Of a stretch of DNA of 64,000 nucleotides, positions 1 to 64,000 are shown piece after piece. The number at the start of each line of letters is the position of its first letter. The stretch's first letter is position 1. The notes under the pieces are model-generated. The model saw only the letters and a program-made list of their open reading frames with translations. It made no database searches and was not told the DNA's origin. This DNA comes from Elmis aenea (lineage: Eukaryota; Arthropoda; Insecta; Coleoptera; Elmidae). The DNA is taken from NCBI GenBank assembly GCA_947652605.1, contig CANTFG010000301.1, forward strand, positions 124,001 to 188,000, in the 5' to 3' direction. The position numbers and the translations under genes are program-made.

Positions 1-1030
1 AGCGACTATTTCGAAACAATTTTAATTATTGATTTGTATATCACAGGAACAGTTTATCCATCGCCTCTTTACATGAATACAATTGTGTTGCATATGTCTT
101 TCAATGAGCTGGTTTTAATTTTTAATAATTTCCTAAAAATACCGTGCTTTAGTTAATACATATGTTCCTTGAGCGACTATTTCTGAACAATTATAATTAT
201 TGATTTGTATGTCACAGAAACAGTTTATCCATCGCCTCTTTAGATGAATACAATTGTTTTGCATATGTCTTTCAATGAGCTGGTATTAATTTTTAATAAT
301 TTCCTAAAAATACCGTGCTTTAGTTAATACATATGTTCCTTGAGCGACTATTTCTAAACAATTTTAATTATTGATTTGTATATCACAGGAACAGTTTATC
401 CATCGCCTCTTTACAGGAATACAATTTTTTTGCATATGTCTTTCAATGAGCTGGTTTTAATTTTTAATAATTTCCTAAAAATACCGTGCTTTAGTTAATA
501 CATATGTTCCTTGAGCGACTATTTCGAAACAATTTTAATTATTGATTTGTATATCACAGGAACAGTTTATCCATCGCCTCTTTACAGGAATACAATTGTT
601 TTGCATATGTCTTTCAATGAGCTGGTTTTAATTTTTAATAATTTCCTAAAAATACCGTGCATTAGTTAATACATATGTTCTTTGAGCGACTATTTCTGAA
701 CAAATTTAATTATTGATTTGTATGTATATCACAGGAACAGTTTATCCATCGCCTCTTTACATGAATACAATTGTTTTGCATATGTCTTTCAATGAGCTGG
801 TTTTAATTTTTAATAATTTCCTAAAAATACCGTGCTTTAGTTAATACATATGTTCCTTGTGCGACTATTTCGAAACAATTTCAATTATTGATTTGTATAT
901 GACAGGAACAGTTTATCCATCGCCTCTTTACATGAATACAATTGTTTTGCATATGTCTTTCAATGAGCTGGTTTTAATTTTTAATAATTTCCTAAAAATA
1001 CCGTGCATTAGTTAATACATATGTTCCTTG
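1..1030. repeat. Types 1-6, left-edge start of a long unit
   Basis: Six monomers start at 1, 172, 343, 514, 685 and 860. In order they carry the marks of types 1 (GTGTTG), 2 (GTCACAGA and GGTATT, with ATTATAATT), 3 (acagg plus a T run), 4 (acagg, cattag), 5 (175 bp) and 6 (TGCGAC, TTTCAATT, TGACAGG, cattag). The same order recurs at 20883-21912, including the rare GTGTTG and ATTATAATT variants. Together with 1031-4792 it gives types 1 to 28 in unbroken order, one of the two fullest units in the window. One difference from the later copy is TAGATG at 241, where the others have TACATG. Confidence 0.88.
685..859. repeat. Type 5 monomer, 175 bp with a GTAT duplication
   Basis: The motif TTTGTATATCAC reads TTTGTATGTATATCAC, a 4-bp tandem duplication of GTAT at monomer position 36-39. 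Twelve monomers share it, starting at 685, 11291, 15570, 15916, 18656, 21567, 32346, 46030, 49455, 53738, 55623 and 60586. All have TTTCTGAAC, nearly all follow a copy ending in GTTCTTTG, and almost all are followed by a type 6 or type 21 copy. They thus descend from one event and mark one position per higher-order unit. The copies at 685 and 21567 also share ACAAATTTAATT. The copy at 53738 is a hybrid, with the acagg mark of types 21/22 in its right part. Confidence 0.93.
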
Positions 1031-4000
1031 TGCGACTATTTCGAAACAATTTCAATTATTGATTTGTATATCACAGGAACAGTTTATCTATCGCCTCTTT
1101 ACATGAATACAATTGTTTTGCATATGTCTTTCAATGAGCTGGTTTTAATTTTTAATAATTTCCTAAAAATACCGTGCTTTAGTTAATACATATGTTCCTT
1201 GAGCGACTATTTCTGAACAATTTTAATTATTGATTTGTATATCACAGAAACAGTTTATCCATCGCCTCTTTACGGGAATACAATTGTTTTGCATATGTCT
1301 TTCAATGAGCTGGTTTCAATTTTTAATAATTTCCTAAAAATACCGTGCTTTAGTTAATACATATGTTCCTTGAGCGACTATTTCTGAACAATTTTAATTA
1401 TTGATTTGTATATCACAGAAACAGTTTATCCATCGCCTCTTTACATGAATACAATTGTTTTGCATATGTCTTTCAAAGAGCTGGTTTTAATTTTTACTAA
1501 TTTCCTAAAAATACCGTGCTTTAGTTAATACATATGTTCTTTGTGCGACTATTTCGAAACAATTTGAATTATTGATTTGTATATGACAGGAACAGTTTAT
1601 CCATCGCCTTTTTACATGAATAAAATTGTTTTGCATATGTCTTTCAATGAGCTGGTTTTAATTTTTAATAATTTCCTAAAAATACCGTGCTTTAGTTAAT
1701 ACATATGTTCCTTGTGCGACTATTTTGAAACAATTTCAATTATTGATTTGTATATGACAGGAACAGTTTATCCATCGCTTCTTTACATGAATACAATTGT
1801 TTTGCATATGTCTTTCAATGAGCTGGTTTTATTTTTTAATAATTTCCTAAAAATACCGTGCTTTAGTTAATACATATGTTCCTTGAGCGACTATTTCTAA
1901 ACAATTTTAATTATTGATTTGTATATCACAGAAACAGTTTATCCATCGCCTCTTTACATGAATACAATTGTTTTGCATATGTCTTTCAATGAGCTGGTAT
2001 TAATTTTTAATAATTTCCTAAAAATACCGTGCTTTAGTTAATACATATGTTCCTTGTGCGACTATTTCGAAACAATTTCAATTATTGATTTGTATATCAC
2101 AGGAACAGTTTATCCATCGCCTCTTTACATGAATACAATTGTTTTGCATATGTCTTTCAATGAGCTGGTTTTAATTTTTAATAATTTCCTAAAAATACCG
2201 TGCTTTAGTTAATACATATGTTCCTTGTGCGACTATTTCTAAACAATTTTAATTATTGATTTGTATATCACAGGAACAGTTTATCCATCGCCTCTTTACA
2301 GGAATACATTTGTTTTTCATATGTCTTTCAATGAGCTGGTTTTAATTTTTAATAATTTCCTAAAAATACCGTGCATTAGTTAATACACATGTTCCTTGAG
2401 CGACTATTTCTGAACAATTTTAATTATTGATATGTATATCACAGGAACAGTTTATCCATCGCCTCTTTACATGAATACAATTGTTTTGCATATGTCTTTC
2501 AATGAGCTGGTTTTAATTTTTAATAATTTCCTAAAAATACCGTGCTTTAGTTAATACATATGTTCCTTGGGCGACTATTTCTAAACGATTTTAATTATTG
2601 ATTTGTATATCACAGGAACAGTTTATCCATCGCCTCTTTACATGAATACAATTGTTTTGCATATGTCTTTCAATGAGCTGGTTTTAATTTTTAATAATTT
2701 CCTAAAAATACCGTGCTTTAGTTAATACATATGTTCCTTGAGCGACTATTTCTAAACAATTTTAATTATTGATTTGTATATCACAGGAACAGTTTATCCA
2801 TCGCCTCTTTACATGAATACAATTGTTTTGCATATGTCTTTCAATGAGCTGGCATTATTTTTTAATAATTTCCTAAAAATACCGTGCTTTAGTTAATACA
2901 TATGTTCCTTGTGCGACTATTTCGAAACTATTTCAATTATTGATTTGTATATGACAGGAACAGTTTATCCATCGCCTCTTTACATGAATACAATTGTTTT
3001 GCATATGTCTTTCAATGAGCTGGTTTTAATTTTTAATAATTTCCTAAAAATACCGTGCTTTAGTTAATACATATGTTCCTTGAGCGACTGTTTCTAAACA
3101 ATTTTAATTATTGATTTGTATATCACAGGAACAGTTTATCCATCGCCTCTTTACAGGAATACAATTTTTTTGCATATGTCTTTCAATGAGCTGGTTTTAA
3201 TTTTTAATAATTTCCTAAAAATACCGTGCATTAGTTAATACATATGTTCCTTGAGCGACTATTTCTGAACAATTTTAATTATTGATTTGTATATCACAGG
3301 AACAGTTTATCCATCGCCTCTTTACATGAATACAATGGTTTTGCATATGTCTTTCAATGAGCTGGTTTTAATTTTTAATAATTTCCTAAAAATACCGTGC
3401 TTTAGTTAATACATATGTTCCTTGAGCGACTATTTCTAAACAATTTTATTTATTGATTTGTATATCACAGGAACAGTTTATCCATCGCCTCTTTACAGGA
3501 ATACAATTGTTTTGCATATGTCTTTCAATGAGCTGGTTTTAATTTTTAATAATTTCCTAAAAATACCGTGCTTTAGTTAATACATATGTTCCTTGAGCGA
3601 CTATTTCTAAACAATTTTAATTATTGATTTGTATATCACAGGAACAGTTTATCCATCGCCTCTTTACAGGAATACAATTGTTTTGCATATGTCTTTCAAT
3701 GAGCTGGTTTTAATTTTTAATAATTTCCTAAAAATACCGTGCATTAGTTAATACATATGTTCCTTGTGCGACTATTTCGAAACAATTTCAATTATTGATT
3801 TGTATATCACAGGAACAGTTTATCTATCGCCTCTTTACATGAATACAATTGTTTTGCATATGTCTTTCAATGAGCTGGTTTTAATTTTTAATAATTTCCT
3901 AAAAATACCGTGCATTAGTTAATACATATGTTCCTTGAGCGACTATTTCGAAACAATTTTAATTATTGATTTGTATATCACAGGAACAGTTTATCCATCG

Positions 4001-4963
4001 CCTCTTTACATGAATACAATTGTTTTGCATATGTCTTTCAATGAGCTGGTTTTAATTTTTAATAATTTCCTAAAAATACCGTGCTTTAGTTAATACATAT
4101 GTTCCTTGAGCGACTATTTCTAAACAATTTTAATTATTGATTTGTATATGACAGGAACAGTATATCCATCGCCTCTTTACATGAATACAATTGTTTTGCA
4201 TATGTCTTTCAATGAGCTGGTTTTAATTTTTAATAATTTCCTAAAAATACCGTGCTTTAGTTAATACATATGTTCCTTGAGCGACTATTTCGAAACAATT
4301 TTAATTATTGATTTGTATATCACAGGAACAGTTTATTTATCGCCTCTTTACATGAATACAATTGTTTTGCATATGTCTTTCAATGAGCTGGTTTTAATTT
4401 TTAATAATTTCCTAAAAATACCGTGCTTTAGTTAATACATATGTTCCTTGAGCGACTATTTCGAAACAATTTTAATTATTGATTTGTATATCACAGAAAC
4501 AGTTTATCCATCGCCTCTTTACATGAATACAATTGTTTTGCATATGTCTTTCAATGAGCTGGTTTTAATTTTTAATAATTTCCTAAAAATACCGTGCTTT
4601 AGTTAATACATATGTTCCTTGAGCGACTATTTCTAAACAATTTTAATTATTGATTTGTATATGACAGGAACAGTTTATCCATTGCCTCTTTACATGAATA
4701 CAATTGTTTTGCATATGTCTTTCAATGAGCTGGTTTTAATTTTTAATAATTTCCTAAAAATACCGTGCTTTAGTTAATACATATGTTCCTTGAGCGACTG
4801 TTTCTAAACAATTTTAATTATTGATTTGTATATCACAGGAACAGTTTATCCATCGCCTCTTTACAGGAATACAATTTTTTTGCATATGTCTTTCAATGAG
4901 CTGGTTTTAATTTTTAATAATTTCCTAAAAATACCGTGCATTAGTTAATACATATGTTCCTTG
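1031..4963. repeat. 23-mer higher-order repeat, copy 1 (3933 bp)
   Basis: Twenty-three monomers in order: types 7 to 28, then a type 19. Copy 2 follows directly at 4964 with the same order. Shared rare marks include CAAAGAG with TTACTAA (type 9), AATAAAATT (type 10), TTTTGAAAC with CGCTTC (type 11), AAACGATT (type 16), AAACTATT (type 18), ACTGTTTC (type 19), ACAATGG (type 20), GTATATCC (type 25) and CCATTGCC (type 28). Copy 1 has private changes, for example ACGGGAAT near 1273 and TTTGAATT near 1563. The end is abnormal: type 28 is followed by type 19 rather than 29, and type 19 by type 7 rather than 20. Confidence 0.9.
4793..4963. repeat. Junction monomer: type 19 displaced between 28 and 7
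   Basis: This copy has the full type 19 signature (ACTGTTTCTAAAC, acagg, T run, cattag). It sits after type 28 (4622) and before type 7 (4964), whereas the usual neighbours of type 19 are 18 or 17 on the left and 20 on the right. Types 6 and 19 both end in GCATTAG. An exchange in the right part of a 19 and a 6 would therefore leave exactly this 19-to-7 step. Another type 19 after a 28 is at 8726, where the step to type 20 is normal. Confidence 0.75.
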
Positions 4964-7900
4964 TGCGACTATTTCGAAACAATTTCAATTATTGATTTGT
5001 ATATCACAGGAACAGTTTATCTATCGCCTCTTTACATGAATACAATTGTTTTGCATATGTCTTTCAATGAGCTGGTTTTAATTTTTAATAATTTCCTAAA
5101 AATACCGTGCTTTAGTTAATACATATGTTCCTTGAGCGACTATTTCTGAACAATTTTAATTATTGATTTGTATATCACAGAAACAGTTTATCCATCGCCT
5201 CTTTACAGGAATACAATTGTTTTGCATATGTCTTTCAATGAGCTGGTTTTAATTTTTAATAATTTCCTAAAAATACCGTGCTTTAGTTAATACATATGTT
5301 CCTTGAGCGACTATTTCTGAACAATTTTAATTATTGATTTGTATATCACAGAAACAGTTTATCCATCGCCTCTTTACATGAATACAATTGTTTTGCATAT
5401 GTCTTTCAAAGAGCTGGTTTTAATTTTTACTAATTTCCTAAAAATACCGTGCTTTAGTTAATACATATGTTCCTTGTGCGACTATTTCGAAACAATTTCA
5501 ATTATTGATTTGTATATGACAGGAACAGTTTATCCATCGCCTTTTTACATGAATAAAATTGTTTTGCATATGTCTTTCAATGAGCTGGTTTTAATTTTTA
5601 ATAATTTCCTAAAAATACCGTGCTTTAGTTAATACATATGTTCCTTGTGCGACTATTTTGAAACAATTTCAATTATTGATTTGTATATGACAGGAACAGT
5701 TTATCCATCGCTTCTTTACATGAATACAATTGTTTTGCATATGTCTTTCAATGAGCTGGTTTTATTTTTTAATAATTTCCTAAAAATACCGTGCTTTAGT
5801 TAATACATATGTTCCTTGAGCGACTATTTCTAAACAATTTTAATTATTGATTTGTATATCACAGAAACAGTTTATCCATCGCCTCTTTACATGAATACAA
5901 TTGTTTTGCATATGTCTTTCAATGAGCTGGTATTAATTTTTAATAATTTCCTAAAAATACCGTGCTTTAGTTAATACATATGTTCCTTGTGCGACTATTT
6001 CGAAACAATTTCAATTATTGATTTGTATATGACAGGAACAGTTTATCCATCGCCTCTTTACATGAATACAATTGTTTTGCATATGTCTTTCAATGAGCTG
6101 GTTTTAATTTTTAATAATTTCCTAAAAATACCGTGCTTTAGTTAATACATATGTTCCTTGAGCGACTATTTCTAAACAATTTTAATTATTGATTTGTATA
6201 TCACAGGAACAGTTTATCCATCGCCTCTTTACAGGAATACATTTGTTTTTCATATGTCTTTCAATGAGCTGGTTTTAATTTTTAATAATTTCCTAAAAAT
6301 ACCGTGCATTAGTTAATACATATGTTCCTTGAGCGACTATTTCTGAACAATTTTAATTATTGATTTGTATATCACAGGAACAGTTTATCCATCGCCTCTT
6401 TACATGAATACAATTGTTTTGCATATGTCTTTCAATGAGCTGGTTTTAATTTTTAATAATTTCCTAAAAATACCGTGCTTTAGTTAATACATATGTTCCT
6501 TGGGCGACTATTTCTAAACGATTTTAATTATTGATTTGTATATCACAGGAACAGTTTATCCATCGCCTCTTTACATGAATACAATTGTTTTGCATATGTC
6601 TTTCAATGAGCTGGTTTTAATTTTTAATAATTTCCTAAAAATACCGTGCTTTAGTTAATACATATGTTCCTTGAGCGACTATTTCTAAACAATTTTAATT
6701 ATTGATTTGTATATCACAGGAACAGTTTATCCATCGCCTCTTTACATGAATACAATTGTTTTGCATATGTCTTTCAATGAGCTGGCATTAATTTTTAATA
6801 ATTTCCTAAAAATACCGTGCTTTAGTTAATACATATGTTCCTTGTGCGACTATTTCGAAACTATTTCAATTATTGATTTGTATATGACAGGAACAGTTTA
6901 TCCATCGCCTCTTTACATGAATACAATTGTTTTGCATATGTCTTTCAATGAGCTGGTTTTAATTTTTAATAATTTCCTAAAAATACCGTGCTTTAGTTAA
7001 TACATATGTTCCTTGAGCGACTGTTTCTAAACAATTTTAATTATTGATTTGTATATCACAGGAACAGTTTATCCATCGCCTCTTTACAGGAATACAATTT
7101 TTTTGCATATGTCTTTCAATGAGCTGGTTTTAATTTTTAATAATTTCCTAAAAATACCGTGCATTAGTTAATACATATGTTCCTTGAGCGACTATTTCTG
7201 AACAATTTTAATTATTGATTTGTATATCACAGGAACAGTTTATCCATCGCCTCTTTACATGAATACAATGGTTTTGCATATGTCTTTCAATGAGCTGGTT
7301 TTAATTTTTAATAATTTCCTAAAAATACCGTGCTTTAGTTAATACATATGTTCCTTGAGCGACTATTTCTAAACAATTTTAATTATTGATTTGTATATCA
7401 CAGGAACAGTTTATCCATCGCCTCTTTACAGGAATACAATTGTTTTGCATATGTCTTTCAATGAGCTGGTTTTAATTTTTAATAATTTCCTAAAAATACC
7501 GTGCTTTAGTTAATACATATGTTCCTTGAGCGACTATTTCTAAACAATTTTAATTATTGATTTGTATATCACAGGAACAGTTTATCCATCGCCTCTTTAC
7601 AGGAATACAATTGTTTTGCATATGTCTTTCAATGAGCTGGTTTTAATTTTTAATAATTTCCTAAAAATACCGTGCATTAGTTAATACATATGTTCCTTGT
7701 GCGACTATTTCGAAACAATTTCAATTATTGATTTGTATATCACAGGAACAGTTTATCTATCGCCTCTTTACATGAATACAATTGTTTTGCATATGTCTTT
7801 CAATGAGCTGGTTTTAATTTTTAATAATTTCCTAAAAATACCGTGCATTAGTTAATACATATGTTCCTTGAGCGACTATTTCGAAACAATTTTAATTATT

Positions 7901-8896
7901 GATTTGTATATCACAGGAACAGTTTATCCATCGCCTCTTTACATGAATACAATTGTTTTGCATATGTCTTTCAATGAGCTGGTTTTAATTTTTAATAATT
8001 TCCTAAAAATACCGTGCTTTAGTTAATACATATGTTCCTTGAGCGACTATTTCTAAACAATTTTAATTATTGATTTGTATATGACAGGAACAGTATATCC
8101 ATCGCCTCTTTACATGAATACAATTGTTTTGCATATGTCTTTCAATGAGCTGGTTTTAATTTTTAATAATTTCCTAAAAATACCGTGCTTTAGTTAATAC
8201 ATATGTTCCTTGAGCGACTATTTCGAAACAATTTTAATTATTGATTTGTATATCACAGGAACAGTTTATTTATCGCCTCTTTACATGAATACAATTGTTT
8301 TGCATATGTCTTTCAATGAGCTGGTTTTAATTTTTAATAATTTCCTAAAAATACCGTGCTTTAGTTAATACATATGTTCCTTGAGCGACTATTTCGAAAC
8401 AATTTTAATTATTGATTTGTATATCACAGAAACAGTTTATCCATCGCCTCTTTACATGAATACAATTGTTTTGCATATGTCTTTCAATGAGCTGGTTTTA
8501 ATTTTTAATAATTTCCTAAAAATACCGTGCTTTAGTTAATACATATGTTCCTTGAGCGACTATTTCTAAACAATTTTAATTATTGATTTGTATATGACAG
8601 GAACAGTTTATCCATTGCCTCTTTACATGAATACAATTGTTTTGCATATGTCTTTCAATGAGCTGGTTTTAATTTTTAATAATTTTCTAAAAATACCGTG
8701 CTTTAGTTAATACATATGTTCCTTGAGCGACTGTTTCTAAACAATTTTAATTATTGAATTGTATATTACAGGAACAGTTTATCCATCGCCTCTTTACAGG
8801 AATACAATTTTTTTGCATATGTCTTTCAATGAGCTGGTTTTAATTTTTAATAATTTCCTAAAAATACCGTGCATTAGTTAATACATATGTTCCTTG
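4964..8896. repeat. 23-mer higher-order repeat, copy 2 (3933 bp)
   Basis: Monomers of types 7 to 28 start at 4964 and run every 171 bp to 8555, followed by a type 19 at 8726. The order is that of copy 1. Examples of differences: type 13 here has TGACAGG where copy 1 has TCACAGG, and type 17 has GGCATTAATTTTT where copy 1 has GGCATTATTTTTT. The right end is not a clean block boundary, because the last type 19 also begins the second copy of the nested 10-mer. Confidence 0.9.
7016..8725. repeat. Nested 10-mer (types 19-28), copy 1 (1710 bp)
   Basis: Ten monomers, types 19 to 28, start at 7016. The identical order follows directly at 8726. The same segment is also at 3083-4792 in single copy, so the tandem doubling happened after, or only in, the second 23-mer. 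The step from type 28 to 19 at 8725/8726 matches the one at 4792/4793, suggesting one original exchange made both. Confidence 0.88.
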
Positions 8897-10435
8897 AGCG
8901 ACTATTTCTGAACAATTTTAATTATTGATTTGTATATCACAGGAACAGTTTATCCATCGCCTCTTTACATGAATACAATGGTTTTGCATATGTCTTTCAA
9001 TGAGCTGGTTTTAATTTTTAATAATTTCCTAAAAATACCGTGCTTTAGTTAATACATATGTTCCTTGAGCGACTATTTCTAAACAATTTTAATTATTGAT
9101 TTGTATATCACAGGAACAGTTTATCCATCGCCTCTTTACAGGAATACAATTGTTTTGCATATGTCTTTCAATGAGCTGGTTTTAATTTTTAATAATTTCC
9201 TAAAAATACCGTGCTTTAGTTAATACATATGTTCCTTGAGCGACTATTTCTAAACAATTTTAATTATTGATTTGTATATCACAGGAACAGTTTATCCATC
9301 GCCTCTTTACAGGAATACAATTGTTTTGCATATGTCTTTCAATGAGCTGGTTTTAATTTTTAATAATTTCCTAAAAATACCGTGCATTAGTTAATACATA
9401 TGTTCCTTGTGCGACTATTTCGAAACAATTTCAATTATTGATTTGTATATCACAGGAACAGTTTATCTATCGCCTCTTTACATGAATACAATTGTTTTGC
9501 ATATGTCTTTCAATGAGCTGGTTTTAATTTTTAATAATTTCCTAAAAATACCGTGCATTAGTTAATACATATGTTCCTTGAGCGACTATTTCGAAACAAT
9601 TTTAATTATTGATTTGTATATCACAGGAACAGTTTATCCATCGCCTCTTTACATGAATACAATTGTTTTGCATATGTCTTTCAATGAGCTGGTTTTAATT
9701 TTTAATAATTTCCTAAAAATACCGTGCTTTAGTTAATACATATGTTCCTTGAGCGACTATTTCTAAACAATTTTAATTATTGATTTGTATATGACAGGAA
9801 CAGTATATCCATCGCCTCTTTACATGAATACAATTGTTTTGCATATGTCTTTCAATGAGCTGGTTTTAATTTTTAATAATTTCATAAAAATACCGTGCTT
9901 TAGTTAATACATATGTTCCTTGAGCGACTATTTCGAAACAATTTTAATTATTGATTTGTATATCACAGGAACAGTTTATTTATCGCCTCTTTACATGAAT
10001 ACAATTGTTTTGCATATGTCTTTCAATGAGCTGGTTTTAATTTTTAATAATTTCCTAAAAATACCGTGCTTTAGTTAATACATATGTTCCTTGAGCGACT
10101 ATTTCGAAACAATTTTAATTATTGATTTGTATATCACAGAAACAGTTTATCCATCGCCTCTTTACATGAATACAATTGTTTTGCATATGTCTTTCAATGA
10201 GCTGGTTTTAATTTTTAATAATTTCCTAAAAATACCGTGCTTTAGTTAATACATATGTTCCTTGAGCGACTATTTCTAAACAATTTTAATTATTGATTTG
10301 TATATGACAGGAACAGTTTATCCATTGCCTCTTTACATGAATACAATTGTTTTGCATATGTCTTTCAATGAGCTGGTTTTAATTTTTAATAATTTCCTAA
10401 AAATACCGTGCTTTAGTTTATACATATGTTCCTTG
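8726..10435. repeat. Nested 10-mer (types 19-28), copy 2 (1710 bp)
   Basis: Types 19 to 28 again, starting at 8726. Private changes against copy 1 include ATTGAATTGTATATTAC near 8753 and TTTCATAAAA near 9891. Its type 28 ends in AGTTTATAC near 10417, as at 14693, 25493, 41905 and 45154, and it leads correctly into type 29 at 10436. This copy therefore keeps the ancestral exit from the unit. Confidence 0.88.
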
Positions 10436-13175
10436 AGCGACTATTTCTAAACAATTTTAATTATTGATTTGTATATCACAGGAACAGTTTATCCATCGCC
10501 TCTTTACATGAATAAAATTGTTTTGCATATGTCTTTCAATAAGCTGGTTTTAATTTTTAATAATTTCCTAAAAATACCGTGCTTTAGTTAATACATATGT
10601 TCCTTGTGCGACTATTTCGAAACAATTTTAATTATTGATTTGTATATCACAGGAACAGTTTATCCATCGCCTCTTTACATGAATACAATTGTTTTGCATA
10701 TGTCTTTCAATGAGCTGGTTTTAATTTTTAATAATTTCCTAAAAATACCGTGCTTTAGTTAATACATATGTTCCTTGAGCGACTATTTCTGAACAATTTT
10801 AATTATTGATTTGTATGTCACAGAAACAGTTTATCCATCGCCTCTTTACATGAATACAATTGTTTTGCATATGTCTTTCAATGAGCTGGTATTAATTTTT
10901 AATAATTTAATAAAAATACCGTGCTTTAGTTAATACATATGTTCCTTGAGCGACTATTTCTAAACAATTTTAATTATTGATTTGTATATCACAGGAACAG
11001 TTTATCCATCGCCTCTTTACAGGAATACAATTGTTTTGCATATGTCTTTCAATGAGCTGGTTTTAATTTTTAATAATTTCCTAAAAATACCGTGCTTTAG
11101 TTAATACATATGTTCCTTGAGCGACTATTTCTAAACAATTTTAATTATTGATTTGTATATCACAGGAACAGTTTATCCATCGCCTCTTTACAGGAATACA
11201 ATTGTTTTGCATATGTCTTTCAATGAGCTGGTTTTAATTTTTAATAATTTCCTAAAAATACCGTGCATTAGTTAATACATATGTTCTTTGAGCGACTATT
11301 TCTGAACAATTTTAATTATTGATTTGTATGTATATCACAGGAACAGTTTATCCATCGCCTCTTTACATGAATACAATTGTTTTGCATATGTCTTTCAATG
11401 AGCTGGTTTTAATTTTTAATAATTTCCTAAAAATACCGTGCTTTAGTTAATACATATGTTCCTTGTGCGACTATTTCGAAACAATTTCAATTATTGATTT
11501 GTATATGACAGGAACAGTTTATCCATCGCCTCTTTACATGAATACAATTGTTTTGCATATGTCTTTCAATGAGCTGGTTTTAATTTTTAATAATTTCCTA
11601 AAAATACCGTGCATTAGTTAATACATATGTTCCTTGTGCGACTATTTCGAAACAATTTCAATTATTGATTTGTATATCACAGGAACAGTTTATCTATCGC
11701 CTCTTTACATAAATACAATTGTTTTGCATATGTCTTTCAATGAGCTGGTTTTAATTTTTAATAATTTCCTAAAAATACCGTGCTTTAGTTAATACATATG
11801 TTCCTTGAGCGACTATTTCTGAACAATTTTAATTATTGATTTGTATATCACAGAAACAGTTTATCCATCGCCTCTTTACAGGAATACAATTGTTTTGCAT
11901 ATGTCTTTCAATGAGCTGGTTTTAATTTTTAATAATTTCCTAAAAATACCGTGCTTTAGTTAATACATATGTTCCTTGAGCGACTATTTCTGAACAATTT
12001 TAATTATTGATTTGTATATCACAGAAACAGTTTATCCATCGCCTCTTTACATGAATACAATTGTTTTGCATATGTCTTTCAAAGAGCTGGTTTTAATTTT
12101 TACTAATTTCCTAAAAATACCGTGCTTTAGTTAATACATATGTTCCTTGTGCGACTATTTCGAAACAATTTCAATTATTGATTTGTATATGACAGGAACA
12201 GTTTATCCATCGCCTTTTTACATGAATAAAATTGTTTTGCATATGTCTTTCAATGAGCTGGTTTTAATTTTTAATAATTTCCTAAAAATACCGTGCTTTA
12301 GTTAATACATATGTTCCTTGTGCGACTATTTTGAAACAATTTCAATTATTGATTTGTATATGACAGGAACAGTTTATCCATCGCTTCTTTACATGAATAC
12401 AATTGTTTTGCATATGTCTTTCAATGAGCTGGTTTTATTTTTTAATAATTTCCTAAAAATACCGTGCTTTAGTTAATACATATGTTCCTTGTGCGACTAT
12501 TTCGAAACAATTTCAATTATTGATTTGTATATCACAGGAACAGTTTATCTATCGCCTCTTTACATGAATACAATTGTTTTGCATATGTCTTTCAATGAGC
12601 TGGTTTTAATTTTTAATAATTTCCTAAAAATACCGTGCATTAGTTAATACATATGTTCCTTGAGCGACTATTTCGAAACAATTTTAATTATTGATTTGTA
12701 TATCACAGGAACAGTTTATCCATCGCCTCTTTACATGAATACAATTGTTTTGCATATGTCTTTCAATGAGCTGGTTTTAATTTTTAATAATTTCCTAAAA
12801 ATACCGTGCATTAGTTAATACATATGTTCCTTGTGCGACTATTTCGAAACAATTTCAATTATTGATTTGTATATCACAGGAACAGTTTATCTATCGCCTC
12901 TTTACATGAATACAATTGTTTTGCATATGTCTTTCAATGAGCTGGTTTTAATTTTTAATAATTTCCTAAAAATACCGTGCATTAGTTAATACATATGTTC
13001 CTTGAGCGACTATTTCGAAACAATTTTAATTATTGATTTGTATATCACAGGAACAGTTTATCCATCGCCTCTTTACATGAATACAATTGTTTTGCATATG
13101 TCTTTCAATGAGCTGGTTTTAATTTTTAATAATTTCCTAAAAATACCGTGCATTAGTTAATACATATGTTCCTTG
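8897..13175. repeat. 25-mer higher-order repeat, copy 1 (4279 bp)
   Basis: Order: 20-28, 29, 1-like (10607), 2-like (10778), 21, 22, 5 (175 bp), 6-11, then 23, 24, 23, 24. The period of 25 x 171 + 4 bases reflects one type 5 copy. It bridges the end of one ancestral unit (20-29) into the start of the next (1, 2, 21/22, 5-11), then jumps from 11 to 23, losing 12-22. The four last monomers (12492-13175) are a doubled 23-24 dimer. Private marks: TTTAATAAAAA near 10907 and TACATAAATAC near 11707. Confidence 0.87.
12492..13175. repeat. Doubled dimer of types 23 and 24 (2 x 342 bp)
   Basis: Monomers at 12492 and 12834 are type 23 (TGCGAC, TTTCAATT, TTTATCTATCG, cattag). Those at 12663 and 13005 are type 24 (AGCGAC, TTTCGAAAC) but end in GCATTAG instead of the usual GCTTTAG. 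The same 11-23-24-23-24 string recurs at 16946-17629 and 19686-20369. The dimer doubling therefore predates the larger duplications that carry it. Confidence 0.85.
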
Positions 13176-45600: not shown

Positions 45601-45858
45601 GTTTTGCATATGTCTTTCAATGAGCTGGTATTAATTTTTAATAATTTCCTAAAAATACCGTGCTTTAGTTAATACATATGTTCCTTGAGCGACTATTTCT
45701 AAACAATTTTAATTATTGATTTGTATATCACAGGAACAGTTTATCCATCGCCTCTTTACAGGAATACAATTGTTTTGCATATGTCTTTCAATGAGCTGGT
45801 TTTAATTTTTAATAATTTCCTAAAAATACCGTGCTTTAGTTAATACATATGTTCCTTG
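42610..45858. repeat. 19-mer higher-order repeat, copy 2 (3249 bp)
   Basis: Eighteen monomers repeat 39361-42438 with all the rare marks listed for copy 1. I found no difference between the copies by eye at those marks, so the event is recent. The last monomer (45688) is a plain type 21. It leads into 22, 5, 6 and 7, the order also seen after 21 at 10949 and 15228, so this copy keeps the older right flank. Confidence 0.9.
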
Positions 45859-46546: not shown

Positions 46547-46717
46547 AGCGACTATTTCTAAACAATTTTAATTATTGATTTGTATATGACAGGAACAGTA
46601 TATCCATCGCCTCTTTACATGAATACAATTGTTTTGCATATGTCTTTTAATGAGCTGGTTTTAATTTTTAATAATTTCCTAAAAATACCGTGCTTTAGTT
46701 AATACATATGTTCCTTG

Positions 46718-48089: not shown

Positions 48090-48257
48090 GACTATTTCGA
48101 AACAATTTTAATTATTGATTTGTATATCACAGAAACAGTTTATTTATCGCCTCTTTACATGAATACAATTGTTTTGCATATGTCTTTCAATGAGCTGGTT
48201 TTAATTTTTAATAATTTCCTAAAAATACCGTGCTTTAGTTAATACATATGTTCCTTG
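48090..48257. repeat. 168-bp monomer with a 3-bp loss at the start motif
   Basis: CCTTGAGCGACTATT is shortened to CCTTGGACTATT at 48086, so the start motif and its CpG are lost. The body combines CACAGAAAC (type 27) with TTTATTTATCG (type 26), which makes it a 26/27 mixture. This is the only full-length monomer in which I see the AGCGAC start destroyed by a deletion of more than one base. Confidence 0.87.
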
Positions 48258-48428
48258 AGCGACTATTTCGAAACAATTTTAATTATTGATTTGTATATCA
48301 CAGGAACAGTTTATCCATCGCCTCTTTACATGAATACAATTGTTTTGCATATGTCTTTCAATGAGCTGGTTTTAATTTTTAATAATTTCCTAAAAATACC
48401 GTGCTTTAGTTAATACATATGTTCCTTG

Positions 48429-53220: not shown

Positions 53221-53395
53221 AGCGACTATTTCTGAACAATTTTAATTATTGATTTGTATGTCACAGAAACAGTTTATCCATCGCCTCTTTACATGAATAC
53301 AATTGTTTTGCATATGTCTTTCAATGAGCTGGTATTAATTTTTAATAATTTCCTAAAAATACCGTGCTTTAGTTAATACATAATTATGTTCCTTG
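53221..53395. repeat. 175-bp monomer with a 4-bp insertion at the second CATATG
   Basis: ACATATGTT reads ACATAATTATGTT at 53378, a 4-bp gain in the second CATATG. The body is type 2-like (TTTCTGAAC, GTCACAGA, GGTATTAA). It is the mirror case of 25845, where the insertion hit the first CATATG of a 2-like monomer. Both insertions add A/T bases at the TA step of the palindrome. Confidence 0.87.
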
Positions 53396-54767
53396 AGCGA
53401 CTATTTCTAAACAATTTTAATTATTGATTTGTATATCACAGGAACAGTTTATCCATCGCCTCTTTACAGGAATACAATTGTTTTGCATATGTCTTTCAAT
53501 GAGCTGGTTTTAATTTTTAATAATTTCCTAAAAATACCGAGCTTTAGTTAATACATATGTTCCTTGAGCGACTATTTCTAAACAATTTTAATTATTGATT
53601 TGTATATCACAGGAACAGTTTATCCATCGCCTCTTTACAGGAATACAATTGTTTTGCATATGTCTTTCAATGAGCTGGTTTTAATTTTTAATAATTTCCT
53701 AAAAATACCGTGCATTAGTTAATACATATGTTCTTTGAGCGACTATTTCTGAACAATTTTAATTATTGATTTGTATGTATATCACAGGAACAGTTTATCC
53801 ATCGCCTCTTTACAGGAATACAATTGTTTTGCATATGTCTTTCAATGAGCTGGTTTTAATTTTTAATAATTTCCTAAAAATACCGTGCTTTAGTTAATAC
53901 ATATGTTCCTTGAGCGACTATTTCTAAACAATTTTAATTATTGATTTGTATATCACAGGAACAGTTTATCCATCGCCTCTTTACAGGAATACAATTGTTT
54001 TGCATATGTCTTTCAATGAGCTGGTTTTAATTTTTAATAATTTCCTAAAAATACCGTGCATTAGTTAATACATATGTTCCTTGAGCGACTATTTCGAAAC
54101 AATTTTAATTATTGATTTGTATATCACAGGAACAGTTTATCCATCGCCTCTTTACATGAATACAATTGTTTTGCATATGTCTTTCAATGAGCTGGTTTTA
54201 ATTTTTAATAATTTCCTAAAAATACCGTGCTTTAGTTAATACATATGTTCCTTGAGCGACTATTTCTAAACAATTTTAATTATTGATTTGTATATGACAG
54301 GAACAGTATATCCATCGCCTCTTTACATGAATACAATTGTTTTGCATATGTCTTTCAATGAGCTGGTTTTAATTTTTAATAATTTCCTAAAAATACCGTG
54401 CTTTAGTTAATACATATGTTCCTTGAGCGACTATTTCGAAACAATTTTAATTATTGATTTTTATATCACAGGAACAGTTTATCCATCGCCTCTTTACATG
54501 AATACAATTGTTTTGCATATGTCTTTCAATAAGCTGGCATTAATTTTTAATAATTTCCTAAAAATACCGTGCTTTAGTTAATACATATGTTCCTTGTGCG
54601 ACTATTTCGAAACAATTTCAATTATTGATTTGTATATGACAGGAACAGTTTATCCATCGCCTCTTTACATGAATACAATTGTTTTGCATATGTCTTTCAA
54701 TGAGCTGGTTTTAATTTTTAATAATTTCCTAAAAATACCGTGCTTTAGTTAATACATATGTTCCTTG
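53221..54767. repeat. Spacer segment of nine monomers between the dispersed copies
   Basis: Monomers start at 53221 (2-like, 175 bp), 53396 (21), 53567 (22), 53738 (5 with acagg, 175 bp), 53913 (22), 54084 (24), 54255 (25), 54426 (24-like with CAATAAG and GGCATTAA) and 54597 (13). The pair 5-22 instead of 5-6, and the acagg mark inside the type 5 copy, indicate an exchange between a type 5 and a type 21 monomer. ACCGAGC near 53537 and GATTTTTATATC near 54457 are private. Confidence 0.82.
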
Positions 54768-55451
54768 AGCGACTATTTCTAAACAATTTTAATTATTGAT
54801 TTGTATATGACAGGAACAGTTTATCCATTGCCTCTTTACATGAATACAATTGTTTTGCATATGTCTTTCAATGAGCTGGTTTTAATTTTTAATAATTTCC
54901 TAAAAATACCGTGCTTTAGTTAATACATATGTTCCTTGAGCGACTATTTCTAAACAATTTTAATTATTGATTTGTATATCACAGGAACAGTTTATACATC
55001 GCCTCTTTACATGAATAAAATTGTTTTGCATATGTCTTTCAATGAGCTGGTTTTAATTTTTAATAATTTCCTAAAAATACCGTGCTTTAGTTAATACATA
55101 TGTTCCTTGAGCGACTATTTCGAAACAATTTTAATTATTGATTTGTATATCACAGGAACAGTTTATCCATCGCCTCTTTACATGAATACAATTGTTTTGC
55201 ATATGTCTTTCAATGAGCTGGTTTTAATTTTTAATAATTTCCTAAAAATACCGTGCTTTAGTTAATACATATGTTCCTTGAGCGACTATTTCTGAACAAT
55301 TATAATTATTGATTTGTATGTCACAGAAACAGTTTATCCATCGCCTCTTTACATGAATACAATTGTTTTGCATATGTCTTTCAATGAGCTGGTATTAATT
55401 TTTAATAATTTCCTAAAAATACCGTGCTTTAGTTAATACATATGTTCCTTG

Positions 55452-55622
55452 AGCGACTATTTCGAAACAATTTTAATTATTGATTTGTATATCACAGGAA
55501 CAGTTTATCCATCGCCTCTTTACAGGAATACAATTGTTTTGTATATGTCTTTCAATGAGCTGGTTTTAATTTTTAATAGTTTCCTAAAAATACCGTGCAT
55601 TAGTTAATACATATGTTTTTTG
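55452..55622. repeat. Fusion monomer replacing a 3-22 pair
   Basis: It starts with TTTCGAAAC as the 3-like copy at 49113 does and ends with GCATTAG as the type 22 copy at 49284 does. It lacks the T run of type 3 in the middle. It therefore equals the left part of one and the right part of the next, the expected product of a one-monomer deletion by unequal exchange. It also matches type 4 (514, 21396), so the alternative is that this copy is ancestral and 49113-49454 is an expansion. GTATATGTC and AATAGTTTCC are private. Confidence 0.75.
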
Positions 55623-57678
55623 AGCGACTATTTCTGAACAATTTTAATTATTGATTTGTATGTATATCACAGGAACAGTTTATCCATCGCCTCTTTACAT
55701 GAATACAATTGTTTTGCATATGTCTTTCAATGAGCTGGTTTTAATTTTTAATAATTTCCTAAAAATACCGTGCTTTAGTTAATACATATGTTCCTTGTGC
55801 GACTATTTCGAAACAATTTCAATTATTGATTTGTATATGACAGGAACAGTTTATCCATCGCCTCTTTACATGAATACAATTGTTTTGCATATGTCTTTCA
55901 AGGAGCTGGTTTTAATTTTTAATAATTTCCTAAAAATACCGTGCATTAGTTAATACATATGTTCCTTGTGCGACTATTTCGAAACAATTTCAATTATTGA
56001 TTTGTATATCACAGGAACAGTTTATCTATCGCCTCTTTACATGAATACAATTGTTTTGCATATGTCTTTCAATGAGCTGGTTTTAATTTTTAATAATTTC
56101 CTAAAAATACCGTGCTTTAGTTAATACATATGTTCCTTGAGCGACTATTTCTGAACAATTTTAATTATTGATTTGTATATCACAGAAACAGTTTATCCAT
56201 CGCCTCTTTACATGAATACAATTGTTTTGCATATGTCTTTCAATGAGCTGGTTTTAATTTTTAATAATTTCCTAAAAATACCGTGCTTTAGTTAATACAT
56301 ATGTTCCTTGAGCGACTATTTCTGAACAATTTTAATTATTAATTTGTATATCACAGAAACAGTTTATCCATCGCCTCTTTACATGAATACAATTGTTTTG
56401 CATATGTCTTTCAAAGAGCTGGTTTTAATTTTTAATAATTTCCTAAAAATACCGTGCTTTAGTTAATACATATGTTCCTTGAGCGACTATTTCGAAACAA
56501 TTTCAATTATTGATTTGTATATGACAGGAACAGTTTATCCATCGCCTTTTTACATGAATAAAATTGTTTTGCATATGTCTTTCAATGAGCTGGTTTTAAT
56601 TTTTAATAATTTCCTAAAAATACCGTGCTTTAGTTAATACATATGTTCCTTGTGCGACTATTTTGAAACAATTTCAATTATTGATTTGTATATGACAGGA
56701 ACAGTTTATCCATCGCTTCTTTACATGAATACAATTGTTTTGCATATGTCTTTCAATGAGCTGGTTTTATTTTTTAATAATTTCCTAAAAATACCGTGCT
56801 TTAGTTAATACATATGTTCCTTGAGCGACTATTTCTAAACAATTTTAATTATTGATTTGTATATCACAGAAACAGTTTATCCATCGCCTCTTTACATGAA
56901 TACAATTGTTTTGCATATGTCTTTCAATGAGCTGGTATTAATTTTTAATAATTTCCTAAAAATACCGTGCTTTAGTTAATACATATGTTCCTTGTGCGAC
57001 TATTTCGAAACAATTTTAATTATTGATTTGTATATGACAGGAACAGTTTATCCATCGCCTCTTTACATGAATACAATTGTTTTGCATATGTCTTTCAATG
57101 AGCTGGTTTTAATTTTTAATAATTTCCTAAAAATACCGTGCTTTAGTTAATACATATGTTCCTTGAGCGACTATTTCTAAACAATTTTAATTATTGATTT
57201 GTATATCACAGGAACAGTTTATCCATCGCCTCTTTACAGGAATACATTTGTTTTGCATATGTCTTTCAATGAGCTGGTTTTAATTTTTAATAATTTCCTA
57301 AAAATACCGTGCATTAGTTAATACATATGTTCCTTGAGCGACTATTTCTGAACAATTTTAATTATTGATTTGTATATCACAGGAACAGTTTATCCATCGC
57401 CTCTTTACATGAATACAATTGTTTTGCATATGTCTTTCAATGAGCTGGTTTTAATTTTTAATAATTTCCTAAAAATACCGTGCTTTAGTTAATACATATG
57501 TTCCTTGGGCGACTATTTCTAAACGATTTTAATTATTGATTTGTATATCACAGGAACAGTTTATCCATCGCCTCTTTACATGAATACAATTGTTTTGCAT
57601 ATGTCTTTCAATGAGCTGGTTTTAATTTTTAATAATTTCCTAAAAATACCGTGCTTTAGTTAATACATATGTTCCTTG

Positions 57679-58191
57679 AGCGACTATTTCTAAACAATTT
57701 TAATTATTGATTTGTATATGACAGGAACAGTATATCCATCGCCTCTTTACATGAATACAATTGTTTTGCATATGTCTTTCAATGAGCTGGCATTATATTT
57801 TAATAATTTCCTAAAAATACCGTGCTTTAGTTAATACATATGTTCCTTGTGCGACTATTTCGAAACTATTTCAATTATTGATTTGTATATGACAGGAACA
57901 GTTTATCCATCGCCTCTTTACATGAATACAATTGTTTTGCATATGTCTTTCAATGAGCTGGCATTAATTTTTAATAATTTCCTAAAAATACCGTGCTTTA
58001 GTTAATACATATGTTCCTTGTGCGACTATTTCGAAACTATTTCAATTATTGATTTGTATATGACAGGAACAGTTTATCCATCGCCTCTTTACATGAATAC
58101 AATTGTTTTGCATATGTCTTTCAATGAGCTGGTTTTAATTTTTAATAATTTCCTAAAAATACCGTGCATTAGTTAATACATATGTTCCTTG
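57679..58191. repeat. Second copy of the three hybrid monomers 25/17, 18/17, 18/19
   Basis: Monomers at 57679, 57850 and 58021 repeat the chimeras of 51511-52023 at an offset of 6168 bases, including the rare GGCATTATATTTT at 57789. The hybrids therefore formed before the ~6.2-kb spaced duplication, which gives a relative order of events. Confidence 0.85.
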
Positions 58192-59388
58192 AGCGACTAT
58201 TTCTGAACAATTTTAATTATTGATTTGTATATCACAGGAACAGTTTATCCATCGCCTCTTTACATGAATACAATGGTTTTGCATATGTCTTTCAATGAGC
58301 TGGTTTTAATTTTTAATAATTTCCTAAAAATACCGTGCTTTAGTTAATACATATGTTCCTTGAGCGACTATTTCTAAACAATTTTAATTATTGATTTGTA
58401 TATCACAGGAACAGTTTATCCATCGCCTCTTTACAGGAATACAATTGTTTTGCATATGTCTTTCAATGAGCTGGTTTTAATTTTTAATAATTTCCTAAAA
58501 ATTCCGTGCTTTAGTTAATACATATGTTCCTTGAGCGACTATTTCTAAACAATTTTAATTATTGATTTGTATATCACAGGAACAGTTTATCCATCGCCTC
58601 TTTACAGGAATACAATTGTTTTGCATATGTCTTTCAATGAGCTGGTTTTAGTTTTTAATAATTTCCTAAAAATACCGTGCATTAGTTAATACATATGTTC
58701 CTTGTGCGACTATTTCGAAACAATTTCAATTATTGATTTGTATATCACAGGAACAGTTTATCTATCGCCTCTTTACATGAATACAATTGTTTTGCATATG
58801 TCTTTCAATGAGCTGGTTTTAATTTTTAATAATTTCCTAAAAATACCGTGCATTAGTTAATACATATGTTCCTTGAGCGACTATTTCGAAACAATTTTAA
58901 TTATTGATTTGTATATCACAGGAACAGTTTATCCATCGCCTCTTTACATGAATACAATTGTTTTGCATATGTCTTTCAATGAGCTGGTTTTAATTTTTAA
59001 TAATTTCCTAAAAATACCGTGCTTTAGTTAATACATATGTTCCTTGAGCGACTATTTCTAAACAATTTTAATTATTGATTTGTATATGACAGGAACAGTA
59101 TATCCATCGCCTCTTTACATGAATACAATTGTTTTGCATATGTCTTTCAATGAGCTGGTTTTAATTTTTAATAATTTCCTAAAAATACCGTGCTTTAGTT
59201 AATACATATGTTCCTTGAGCGACTATTTCGAAACAATTTTAATTATTGATTTGTATATCACAGGAACAGTTTATTTATCGCCTCTTTACATGAATACAAT
59301 TGTTTTGCATATGTCTTTCAATGAGCTGGTTTTAATTTTTAATAATTTCCTAAAAATACCGTGCTTTAGTTAATACATATGTTCCTTG

Positions 59389-62299
59389 AGCGACTATTTC
59401 TAAACAATTTTAATTATTGATTTGTATATCACAGGAACAGTTTATCCATCGCCTCTTTACATGAATAAAATTGTTTTGCATATGTCTTTCAATGAGCTGG
59501 TTTTAATTTTTAATAATTTCCTAAAAATACCGTGCTTTAGTTAATACATATGTTCCTTGAGCGACTATTTCGAAACAAATTTAATTATTGATTTGTATAT
59601 CACAGGAACAGTTTATCCATCGCCTCTTTACATGAATACAATTGTTTTGCATATGTCTTTCAATGAGCTGGTATTAATTTTTAATAATTTCCTAAAAATA
59701 CCGTGCTTTAGTTAATACATATGTTCCTTGAGCGACTGTTTCTGAACAATTTTAATTATTGATTTGTATATCACAGAAACAGTTTATCCATCGCCTCTTT
59801 ACATGAATACAATTGTTTTGCATATGTCTTTCAATGAGCTGGTTTTAATTTTTAATAATTTCCTAAAAATACCGTGCTTTAGTTAATACATATGTTCCTT
59901 GAGCGACTATTTCGAAACAATTTTAATTATTGATTTGTATATCACAGGAACAGTTTATCCATCGCCTCTTTACATGAATACAATTGTTTTGCATATGTCT
60001 TTCAATGAGCTGGTTTTAATTTTTAATAATTTCCTAAAAATACCGTGCTTTAGTTAATACATATGTTCCTTGAGCGACTATTTCTGAACAATTTTAATTA
60101 TTGATTTGTATGTCACAGAAACAGTTTATCCATCGCCTCTTTACATGAATACAATTGTTTTGCATATGTCTTTCAATGAGCTGGTATTAATTTTTAATAA
60201 TTTCCTAAAAATACCGTGCTTTAGTTAATACATATGTTCCTTGAGCGACTATTTCGAAACAATTTTAATTATTGATTTGTATATCACAGGAACAGTTTAT
60301 CCATCGCCTCTTTACAGGAATACAATTGTTTTGCATATGTCTTTCAATGAGCTGGTTTTAATTTTTAATAATTTCCTAAAAATACCGTGCTTTAGTTAAT
60401 ACATATGTTCCTTGAGCGACTATTTCTAAACAATTTTAATTATTGATTTGTATATCACAGGAACAGTTTATCCATCGCCTCTTTACAGGAATACAATTGT
60501 TTTGCATATGTCTTTCAATGAGCTGGTTTTAATTTTTAATAATTTCCTAAAAATACCGTGCATTAGTTAATACATATGTTCTTTGAGCGACTATTTCTGA
60601 ACAATTTTAATTATTGATTTGTATGTATATCACAGGAACAGTTTATCCATCGCCTCTTTACATGAATACAATTGTTTTGCATATGTCTTTCAATGAGCTG
60701 GTTTTAATTTTTAATAATTTCCTAAAAGTACCGTGCTTTAGTTAATACATATGTTCCTTGTGCGACTATTTCGAAACAATTTCAATTATTGATTTGTATA
60801 TGACAGGAACAGTTTATCCATCGCCTCTTTACATGAATACAATTGTTTTGCATATGTCTTTCAATGAGCTGGTTTTAATTTTTAATAATTTCCTAAAAAT
60901 ACCGTGCATTAGTTAATACATATGTTCCTTGTGCGACTATTTCGAAACAATTTCAATTATTGATTTGTATATCTCAGGAACAGTTTATCTATCGCCTCTT
61001 TACATGAATACAATTGTTTTGCATTTGTCTTTCAATGAGCTGGTTTTAATTTTTAATAATTTCCTAAAAATACCGTGCTTTAGTTAATACATATGTTCCT
61101 TGAGCGACTATTTCTAAACAATTTTAATTATTGATTTGTATATGACAGGAACAGTATATCCATCGCCTCTTTACATGAATACAATTGTTTTGCATATGTC
61201 TTTCACTGAGCTGGTTTTAATTTTTAATAATCTCCTAAAAATACCGTGCTTTAGTTAATACATATGTTCCTTGAGCGACTATTTCTAAACAATTTTAATT
61301 ATTGATTTGTATATGACAGGAACAGTATATCCATCGCCTCTTTACATGAATACAATTGTTTTGCATATGTCTTTCAATGAGCTGGTTTTAATTTTTAATA
61401 ATTTCCTAAAAATACCGTGCTTTAGTTAATACATATGTTCCTTGAGCGACTATTTCGAAACAATTTTAATTATTGATTTGTATATCACAGGAACAGTTTA
61501 TCAATCGCCTCTTTACATGAATACAATTGTTTTGCATATGTCTTTCAATGAGCTGGTTTTAATTTTTAATAATTTCCTAAAAATACCGTGCATTAGTTAA
61601 TACATATGTTCCTTGTGCGACTATTTCGAAACAATTTCAATTATTGATTTGTATATCACAGGAACAGTTTATCTATCGCCTCTTTACATGAATACAATTG
61701 TTTTGCATATGTCTTTCAATGAGCTGGTTTTAATTTTTAATAATTTCCTAAAAATACCGTGCATTAGTTAATACATATGTTCCTTGAGCGACTATTTCGA
61801 AACAATTTTAATTATTGATTTGTATATCACAGGAACAGTTTATCCATCGCCTCTTTACATGAATACAATTGTTTTGCATATGTCTTTCAATGAGCTGGTT
61901 TTAATTTTTAATAATTTCCTAAAAATACCGTGCTTTAGTTAATACATATGTTCCTTGAGCGACTATTTCTAAACAATTTTAATTATTGATTTGTATATGA
62001 CAGGAACAGTATATCCATCGCCTCTTTACATGAATACAATTGTTTTGCATATGTCTTTCAATGAGCTGGTTTTAATTTTTAATAATTTCCTAAAAATACC
62101 GTGCTTTAGTTAATACATATGTTCCTTGAGCGACTATTTCGAAACAATTTTAATTATTGATTTGTATATCACAGGAACAGTTTATTTATCGCCTCTTTAC
62201 ATGAATACAATTGTTTTGCATATGTCTTTCAATGAGCTGGTTTTAATTTTTAATAATTTCCTAAAAATACCGTGCTTTAGTTAATACATATGTTCCTTG
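59389..62299. repeat. Rearranged segment of 17 monomers
   Basis: Order: 29, 1-like, 8-like (59731, with ACTGTTTC), 24, 2-like, 21-like with TTTCGAAAC, 22, 5 (175 bp), 6, 7, 25, 25, 24-like ending in cattag, 23, 24, 25, 26. From 60932 it parallels 46893-48089. It carries more private single changes than most other regions: AAAAGTACC near 60725, TATCTCAGG near 60970, GCATTTGTC near 61021, CACTGAG near 61204, AATCTCC near 61229 and TATCAATCG near 61500. Confidence 0.82.
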
Positions 62300-63154: not shown

Positions 63155-63230
63155 AGCGACTATTTCTGAACAATTTAAATTATTGATTTGTATATGACAG
63201 GAACAGTTTATCCATCGCATATGTTCCTTG
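63155..63230. repeat. Truncated 76-bp monomer (95-bp internal deletion)
   Basis: The sequence runs normally to TATCCATCGC (monomer position 64) and then continues with ATATGTTCCTTG (from position 160). This removes 95 bp, including ACAATTGT, the first CATATG and the T/A-rich tract. The joint shares a single C, so there is almost no microhomology, although both sides lie next to CATATG-like sequence. Left and right neighbours both have CAATTTAAATT and TGACAGG, so they are close relatives. This is the only large deletion in the window. Confidence 0.95.
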
Positions 63231-64000
63231 AGCGACTATTTCTAAACAATTTAAATTATTGATTTGTATATGACAGGAACAGTTTATCCATTGCCTCTTT
63301 ACATGAATACAATTGTTTTGCATATGTCTTTCAATGAGCTGGTTTTAATTTTTAATAATTTCCTAAAAATACCGTGCTTTAGTTAATACATATGTTCCTT
63401 GAGCGACTATTTCTAAACAATTTTAATTATTGATTTGTATATCACAGAAACAGTTTATCCATCGCCTCTTTACAGGAATACAATTGTTTTGCATATGTCT
63501 TTCAATGAGCTGGTTTTAATTTTTAATAATTTCCTAAAAATACCGTGCTTTAGTTAATACATATGTTCCTTGAGCGACTATTTCTGAACAATTTTAATTA
63601 TTGATTTGTATATCACAGAAACAGTTTATCCATCGCCTCTTTACAGGAATACAATTGTTTTGCATATGTCTTTCAATGAGCTGGTTTTAATTTTTAATAA
63701 TTTCCTAAAAATACCGTGCTTTAGTTAATACATATGTTCCTTGTGCGACTATTTCGAAACAATTTCAATTATTGATTTGTATATGACAGGAACAGTTTAT
63801 CCATCGCCTCTTTACATGAATACAATTGTTTTGCATATGTCTTTCAATGAGCTGGTTTTAATTTTTAATAATTTCCTAAAAATACCGTGCATTAGTTAAT
63901 ACATATGTTCCTTGTGCGACTATTTCGAAACAATTTCAATTATTGATTTGTATATCACAGGAACAGTTTATCTATCGCCTCTTTACATGAATACAATTGT
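63231..64000. repeat. Right-edge monomers: 28-like, 8-like, 8, 6, 7 (partial)
   Basis: Monomers start at 63231 (28-like, CCATTGCC and CAATTTAAATT), 63402 (8-like with TTTCTAAAC), 63573 (8), 63744 (6) and 63915 (7, cut by the window edge after 86 bases). The 6-7 step is ancestral, so the array evidently continues to the right with recognisable types. Confidence 0.88.

Follow-up and report, generated by a model that had tools for sequence, protein, structure and literature searches.

How can a satellite array keep one fixed order of monomers while being cut into repeat units of many different lengths? The question is raised by a 64,000-nucleotide stretch of the Elmis aenea genome (contig CANTFG010000301.1, positions 124,001 to 188,000), referred to here as the window, all of which (1..64000, + strand) is a wall-to-wall tandem satellite of 171-bp, AT-rich monomers (28% GC). 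A first-pass annotation of the letters alone had described about 29 monomer types in a fixed order, with tandem blocks built from subsets of 10, 13, 16, 17, 19, 23 and 25 monomers, and had read the array as being in flux between competing units with no winner yet. The best explanation of the evidence assembled below is very probably that a 29-monomer array has been reworked by serial duplication and deletion of blocks.

The 29-step order of the monomers

Cutting the window at the start motif of the monomer yielded 374 pieces, or 375 units once one 339-bp piece had been split. Most units (356) are 171 bp long and 14 are 175 bp; the lengths 170, 174, 168 and 76 bp occur once each, and a piece of 86 bp stands at the edge, so the 171-bp phase is maintained in all but a few of them. 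Pairwise identity among the monomers is about 97%, and the 374 pieces comprise 140 distinct sequences that differ by combinations of shared variant sites.

Cyclic orders of 37 lengths (K = 8–44 positions) were fitted to 373 of the 375 units (all but the two shortest, of 76 and 86 bp), with a size penalty of 4 per cycle position, which is an arbitrary choice. The penalised score was best at K = 29 (−608), followed by K = 30 (−625), and order breaks were fewest at 29 among lengths 9–44 (41 breaks); K = 8 gave 37 breaks but 949 mismatches. When break penalties of 3, 6 and 8 were applied to nine lengths, 29 remained clearly above 28 and 30. The best 29-cycle score of −492 compares with −1026 to −1066 in all 15 shuffles of monomer order, which had fewer starting points. 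An order trained on the left half of the window and tested on the right scored −325, against −606 for the best of 200 order shuffles, and the reverse test scored −244 against −567, again for the best of 200. The mean difference is 1.70 bases between monomers that share a cycle position and 5.62 between those that do not, a divergence of about 1% within positions and 3.3% between them.

Unbroken runs of 28, 30 and 33 monomers follow the cycle, with individual monomers at no more than 8 mismatches to it. The run of 30 (48090..53220, +) and the run of 33 (55452..61102, +) each complete a full turn. Together, the penalised optimum, the shuffle and held-out controls and these full turns bear out the first-pass claim of about 29 types in a fixed order. 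The check that the annotation had proposed, clustering the monomers and looking for the predicted lags, came out as expected with 375 units in place of 374, since the types do recur in order and the lags are found.

Duplicated blocks and their junctions

All seven of the block periods named at first pass exist in the window, and an eighth, of 36 monomers, can be added; the qualification is that the blocks are essentially two-copy (8 periods, 2.0 copies), that the 25-monomer period repeats only in part and that the 13-monomer block has a rearranged middle segment. All lie on the + strand. A 23-monomer unit stands in two tandem copies at 1031..8896 with 13 differences in 3,933 bp (0.33%). It overlaps a 10-monomer unit, also in two tandem copies (7016..10435), in which eight of the ten monomers match almost exactly, with 1 difference in 1,368 bp (0.07%), and the two end monomers carry 2 differences each; the 27→18 junction of this block doubles as the end of the first 23-monomer copy. 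At a lag of 25 monomers (8897..15744), only the first 15 of the 25 are repeated, with 5 differences in 2,569 bp (0.20%), and the second copy then departs. The two tandem copies of a 16-monomer unit follow at 15745..21224, where 15 of the 16 monomers match (4 differences in 2,569 bp, 0.16%) and the 16th pair has 9 differences; nested within this block are a 10→22 step and a 22-23-22-23 rearrangement.

Further to the right, a 17-monomer unit in two tandem copies (26532..32345) shows a single difference in 2,907 bp (0.03%). Three successive 13-monomer segments, covering cycle positions 13–25, occupy 33889..40557; the middle one is internally rearranged and the outer pair differs at 11 places in 2,223 bp (0.50%). 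A 19-monomer unit in two tandem copies (39361..45858) again has 1 difference, in 3,249 bp (0.03%), and the lag-36 repeat, which the first-pass list lacked, extends over 22 monomers at 49455..59388 with 13 differences in 3,766 bp (0.35%). Divergence within pairs thus spans 0.03–0.50% over the eight blocks, and the duplications are of differing ages. The whole can be read as nested layers of time, with the monomer types arising first, the 29-mer after them and the local blocks last.

The junctions between blocks provide a second kind of record. Along the best path through the window the order is broken 43 times, in 30 distinct ways, and ten of these kinds are seen two or three times, which is what the copying of existing junctions by later duplications would produce. 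In fact, the 27→18 junction of the 10-monomer duplication is present in both copies of the 23-monomer block, and both the 25- and the 16-monomer block carry the 10→22 and 22-23-22-23 changes; such nesting gives the relative order of the events. Diagnostic bases place the exchange inside a monomer, rather than at its border, in 10 of the 30 kinds, mostly by a single base and by two bases in 8→14 and 25→13, and the other 20 are compatible with the monomer border or with nearby positions. Some breaks are poorly resolved, with up to 8 mismatches even at the best placement. A single recombination hotspot was considered and rejected, as the placed intervals (for example 43–58, 106–125 and 149–168) do not overlap.

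Considering how hard such repeats are to assemble, the blocks might instead be false duplications or collapses, and the two pairs that differ at one base only (2.9 and 3.2 kb) are what an assembly artefact could produce. Several other pairs carry many base differences, some junctions are hybrid and preserve the phase, and a second array on another contig likewise has lags of 18 and 25 monomers, all of which makes an artefact highly improbable.

Neutral turnover or competition as possible causes

Under the preferred explanation, the starting state would have been an array of 29-monomer higher-order repeats (29 × 171 bp, a unit of about 5 kb), which successive duplications and deletions of whole-monomer blocks would then have reworked. 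This presupposes that a homogeneous 29-mer array existed in the past. The exchanges would presumably have been homologous, through unequal sister-chromatid exchange or break-induced replication, and selectively neutral, and the locus may lie in centromeric or pericentromeric heterochromatin. The literature names each of these two mechanisms as an origin of comparable structures (PMC8997354).

Turnover of this kind was simulated by applying random in-register block duplications and deletions to a perfect 29-mer array until 30 distinct junctions had formed; every mean event size was given 100 runs. At mean sizes of 10, 15 and 25 monomers, at least eight periods were obtained in 12, 19 and 23% of runs, and copy number was no higher than observed in 89, 88 and 96%. 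The simulated 5–95% range across mean sizes of 10–25 was three to nine periods with a median of two copies, values that include those of the window. Because a neutral model that gives no unit an advantage yields a similar number of periods and a similar copy number, selection or competition is not required for the observed pattern at mean event sizes of 10–25.

The first-pass annotation had favored a reading with several competing units and no winner so far, which as a rival explanation would mean that new higher-order units compete through drive or selection without any of them having taken over. Several periods do coexist inside 64 kb, and part of the strongest mixing of units in human D8Z2 is reported from the hypomethylated, CENP-A-marked region (PMC8099727). 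Against this, clean copies of any unit number at most two in the 64 kb and, by a measure of near-identical runs, in the 206 kb of the whole contig, the divergences of the pairs are staggered, and at event sizes of 10–25 the neutral simulation is enough. Flux, and blocks that are subsets of the 29-step order, stand from that reading; with two copies at most, nothing in the array shows competition or expansion, and competing units are a distinctly unlikely cause. A stronger version of neutral turnover is possible but doubtful: block duplications and deletions may be one-off events that almost never iterate, in which case the 29-mer would be dissolving into many short-lived pairs without amplification, a pure birth-and-death process whose order of events is readable from the nested junctions.

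The reach of the 29-mer

The window is positions 124001–188000 of a contig (C280) of 206,187 bp, in a genome assembly of 516 Mb and 302 contigs. Apart from three inserts, C280 consists of this satellite throughout, with unit starts on the + strand only. It holds 23 tandem-like blocks at lags of 7, 10, 12, 13, 14, 16, 17, 18, 19, 21, 23, 25, 26, 30, 36 and 66 monomers, not all independent, as the rows at 13 and 26 overlap. The search covered lags below 80 with thresholds of 1.5 copies and a score of 10, and by its strict measure of near-identical runs, which overlooks additional copies that have decayed, for instance the middle 13-monomer segment, no block on C280 exceeds 2.0 copies. Extension into the flanks, which the annotation had suggested as a way to find a dominant unit, accordingly revealed none over the 206 kb. 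The window's 29-mer order, applied to the other 778 monomers of C280, scored above all 100 order shuffles, and runs of 31 monomers in order occur across and outside the window's left edge.

A series of results weighs against the preferred explanation. By raw score, K = 34 ties K = 29 and longer cycles do slightly better, and K = 36 equals or slightly exceeds K = 29 at break penalties of 3, 6 and 8; some gain with length is expected from the larger number of free positions. The longest lag-29 match in the window is only 4 monomers, which is low for the simulated arrays (median 10–13, 5th percentile 1–5), and the intact 29-mers are not tandem neighbors. At a mean event size of 5, only 1% of simulated runs reached eight periods. 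In the rest of C280, the cost per monomer is about double (−2.50 versus −1.26), there are 161 order breaks versus 147 in the best order shuffle, and longer cycles keep improving the fit. Given this poorer fit, the added breaks and the advantage of longer cycles, the 29-mer is regional; by the copy numbers above, no unit dominates on the contig.

Some of these results are the substance of another alternative, namely that no homogeneous 29-mer array ever existed and that the order arose incidentally, as parts of a longer ordered stretch were duplicated locally and piece by piece. Non-adjacent lag-29 copies, the better fit of longer cycles to the other 778 monomers and the raw score of K = 36 in the window would all suit such a history. 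The full turns of 30 and 33 monomers, the 31-monomer runs at the left edge, and the penalised optimum at 29, which stays above its neighbors at three further penalties, argue the other way. The raw-score ties and the number of breaks outside the window make reworking of a 29-mer array slightly weaker as an explanation and this alternative slightly stronger, leaving the latter fairly unlikely.

The array has two properties of higher-order repeats: its monomers are of distinct types that follow one another in a set order, and copies of a unit are more alike than the different monomers inside it. No unit stands in many tandem copies, with at most two clean copies per block in the window and the contig, and the intact 29-mers are not adjacent. 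The array is for these reasons classed as one that works like, or derives from, a higher-order repeat array, and not as a standing one.

Two regularities among the contig's blocks were not upheld. Ten of 22 lags (66 excluded) fall within 16–19, which gave P = 0.006 under a uniform null and 0.13 under a gamma null, and a preferred duplication size was not accepted. Blocks of equal lag were likewise not accepted as single inherited events, as 9 of the 11 pairs that share a lag are clearly distinct units; the remaining two, at 2.44 and 2.84 differences per monomer, come close to the 5% point for random pairs, and some kinship within these two pairs is possible.

Across the whole genome, a pattern search found 85,749 occurrences of a 25-mer from the satellite, which corresponds to about 14.7 Mb or more. 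An array of 42 monomers on the 73-Mb contig C1 has an identical consensus and its own lags of 18 and 25 monomers. The 29-mer order is weak there, at 2.9 differences per monomer with 3 of 1000 order shuffles equally good, and was not accepted for that array. It lies at C1:1709362-1718028 and runs into 200 N, which may be an assembly gap, so that the array may be longer; further matches begin at C1:2271530.

Other features of the array

From 61103 onward, the population of monomers changes. Many of the last 16 typed monomers of the window (61103–63914) match the 29-cycle poorly, with up to 6 differences, and the fit is likewise poorer over the next 18 kb of the contig, at about 2 differences per monomer. 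Within this part lies a truncated 76-bp monomer (63155..63230, +), one of nine such stubs over 145 kb of C280, eight of them identical and one with a single change. A near-identical unit follows each stub, which is probably a marker of single origin dispersed by block copying. A 168-bp monomer at 48090..48257 (+) lacks 3 bp at its start, and a 4-bp insertion near base 41, found in 13 of the 373 typed units, marks cycle position 4 of 29.

The array is non-coding, as the 64-kb window holds no open reading frame (ORF) of at least 80 amino acids, and no inverted unit starts occur in it, so that the orientation is single throughout. CpG is not depleted in the window (observed/expected 0.98), which fits low genomic CpG methylation or a young array. 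The predicted DNA fold of the monomer is ordinary (z −0.57), and a conserved box was rejected, the longest invariant stretch being 7 bp (P 0.69). Rfam gave no match in bases 1–3000, bases 1–2000 matched nothing in phage and plasmid collections and the exact satellite 25-mer had no match in viral and prokaryote contig collections, at the sensitivity used and in collections from which records close to this genome may be missing, and six satellite oligonucleotides did not occur in the main text of published papers.

The three inserts in C280 all lie outside the window. The largest is a 6.9-kb long terminal repeat (LTR) element inside the array at C280:33604-40526, whose opening sequence is repeated at its other end; it has an envelope ORF of Baculo_F-like type beside reverse transcriptase, RNase H and integrase. 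Insects carry errantivirus-like elements of this sort, and the insert accordingly suggests an insect host. The other two, both judged by eye, are a 598-bp insert with terminal inverted repeats (C280:10591-11188) and a 140-bp palindrome-like insert (C280:3668-3807).

Comparison with known systems

The regime closest to this array is that of Arabidopsis CEN178, in which near-identical monomers form many short, local, low-copy higher-order duplications; the length and sequence of the CEN178 monomer differ from those of the 171-bp satellite. With human alpha satellite, the agreement observed at the level of the monomer is one of length. The core motif of the CENP-B box had no match in the window, and the best partial match in the consensus (9 of 17) was no better than in shuffled monomers.

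The first-pass annotation had set the mixture of units here against known arrays, usually with one dominant unit each, a contrast that proves too strong. Human D8Z2, on chromosome 8, mixes 4-, 7-, 8- and 11-monomer units that are all described as derived from the 11-mer (PMC8099727), and its monomer is likewise about 171 bp, with derived units drawn from one ancestral unit as the subsets are here. The 4- and 7-monomer units of D8Z2 begin with a hybrid monomer (PMC8099727), and hybrid junction monomers occur here too. Each D8Z2 unit is reported as abundant (19–36%) and some zones as homogeneous, whereas here no unit exceeds two clean copies. Similarly, the 4- and 6-monomer units of D5Z2, on chromosome 5, are thought to come from repeated deletion of monomers from an ancestral 10-monomer unit (PMC11062924), but those variants form a new evolutionary layer, in contrast to the derived blocks of about two copies seen here. 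Identity between the monomers of one human unit can be as low as 50–70% (PMC8997354), compared with about 97% in this array.

Among invertebrates, the satellites of the root-knot nematode Meloidogyne are also AT-rich, have 170–190 bp as one of two common unit sizes, occur in both simple and higher-order arrays, and include long and short unit variants one monomer apart (PMC3694981, PMC9673304). Compared by description only, their units differ in joining divergent satellites, down to 32% identity, whereas a single family of about 97% identity is found here. In the beetle Tribolium madens, the genome is reported to have been populated via higher-order repeats of one basic unit (PMC13081366), but that unit is about 110 bp with dyad symmetries, unlike the 171-bp monomer here, which keeps one orientation over the contig and has no unusual fold. 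A 169-bp satellite is mentioned for Myzus persicae and can be set beside the 171-bp array by description only.

Higher-order units derived as subsets of a longer one are thus already established in the published accounts of human D8Z2 and D5Z2, and the array described here works in the same way. What is unusual is the combination of a long unit, shallow divergence between monomers and no amplified unit in the sequence read. This array alone does not establish a new kind. Its monomers, about 97% alike and still typeable, its nested junctions and its pairs at 0.03–0.5% divergence amount to a readable record of the rise and decay of a higher-order unit, and offer a test case outside vertebrates for neutral versus driven models of satellite turnover.

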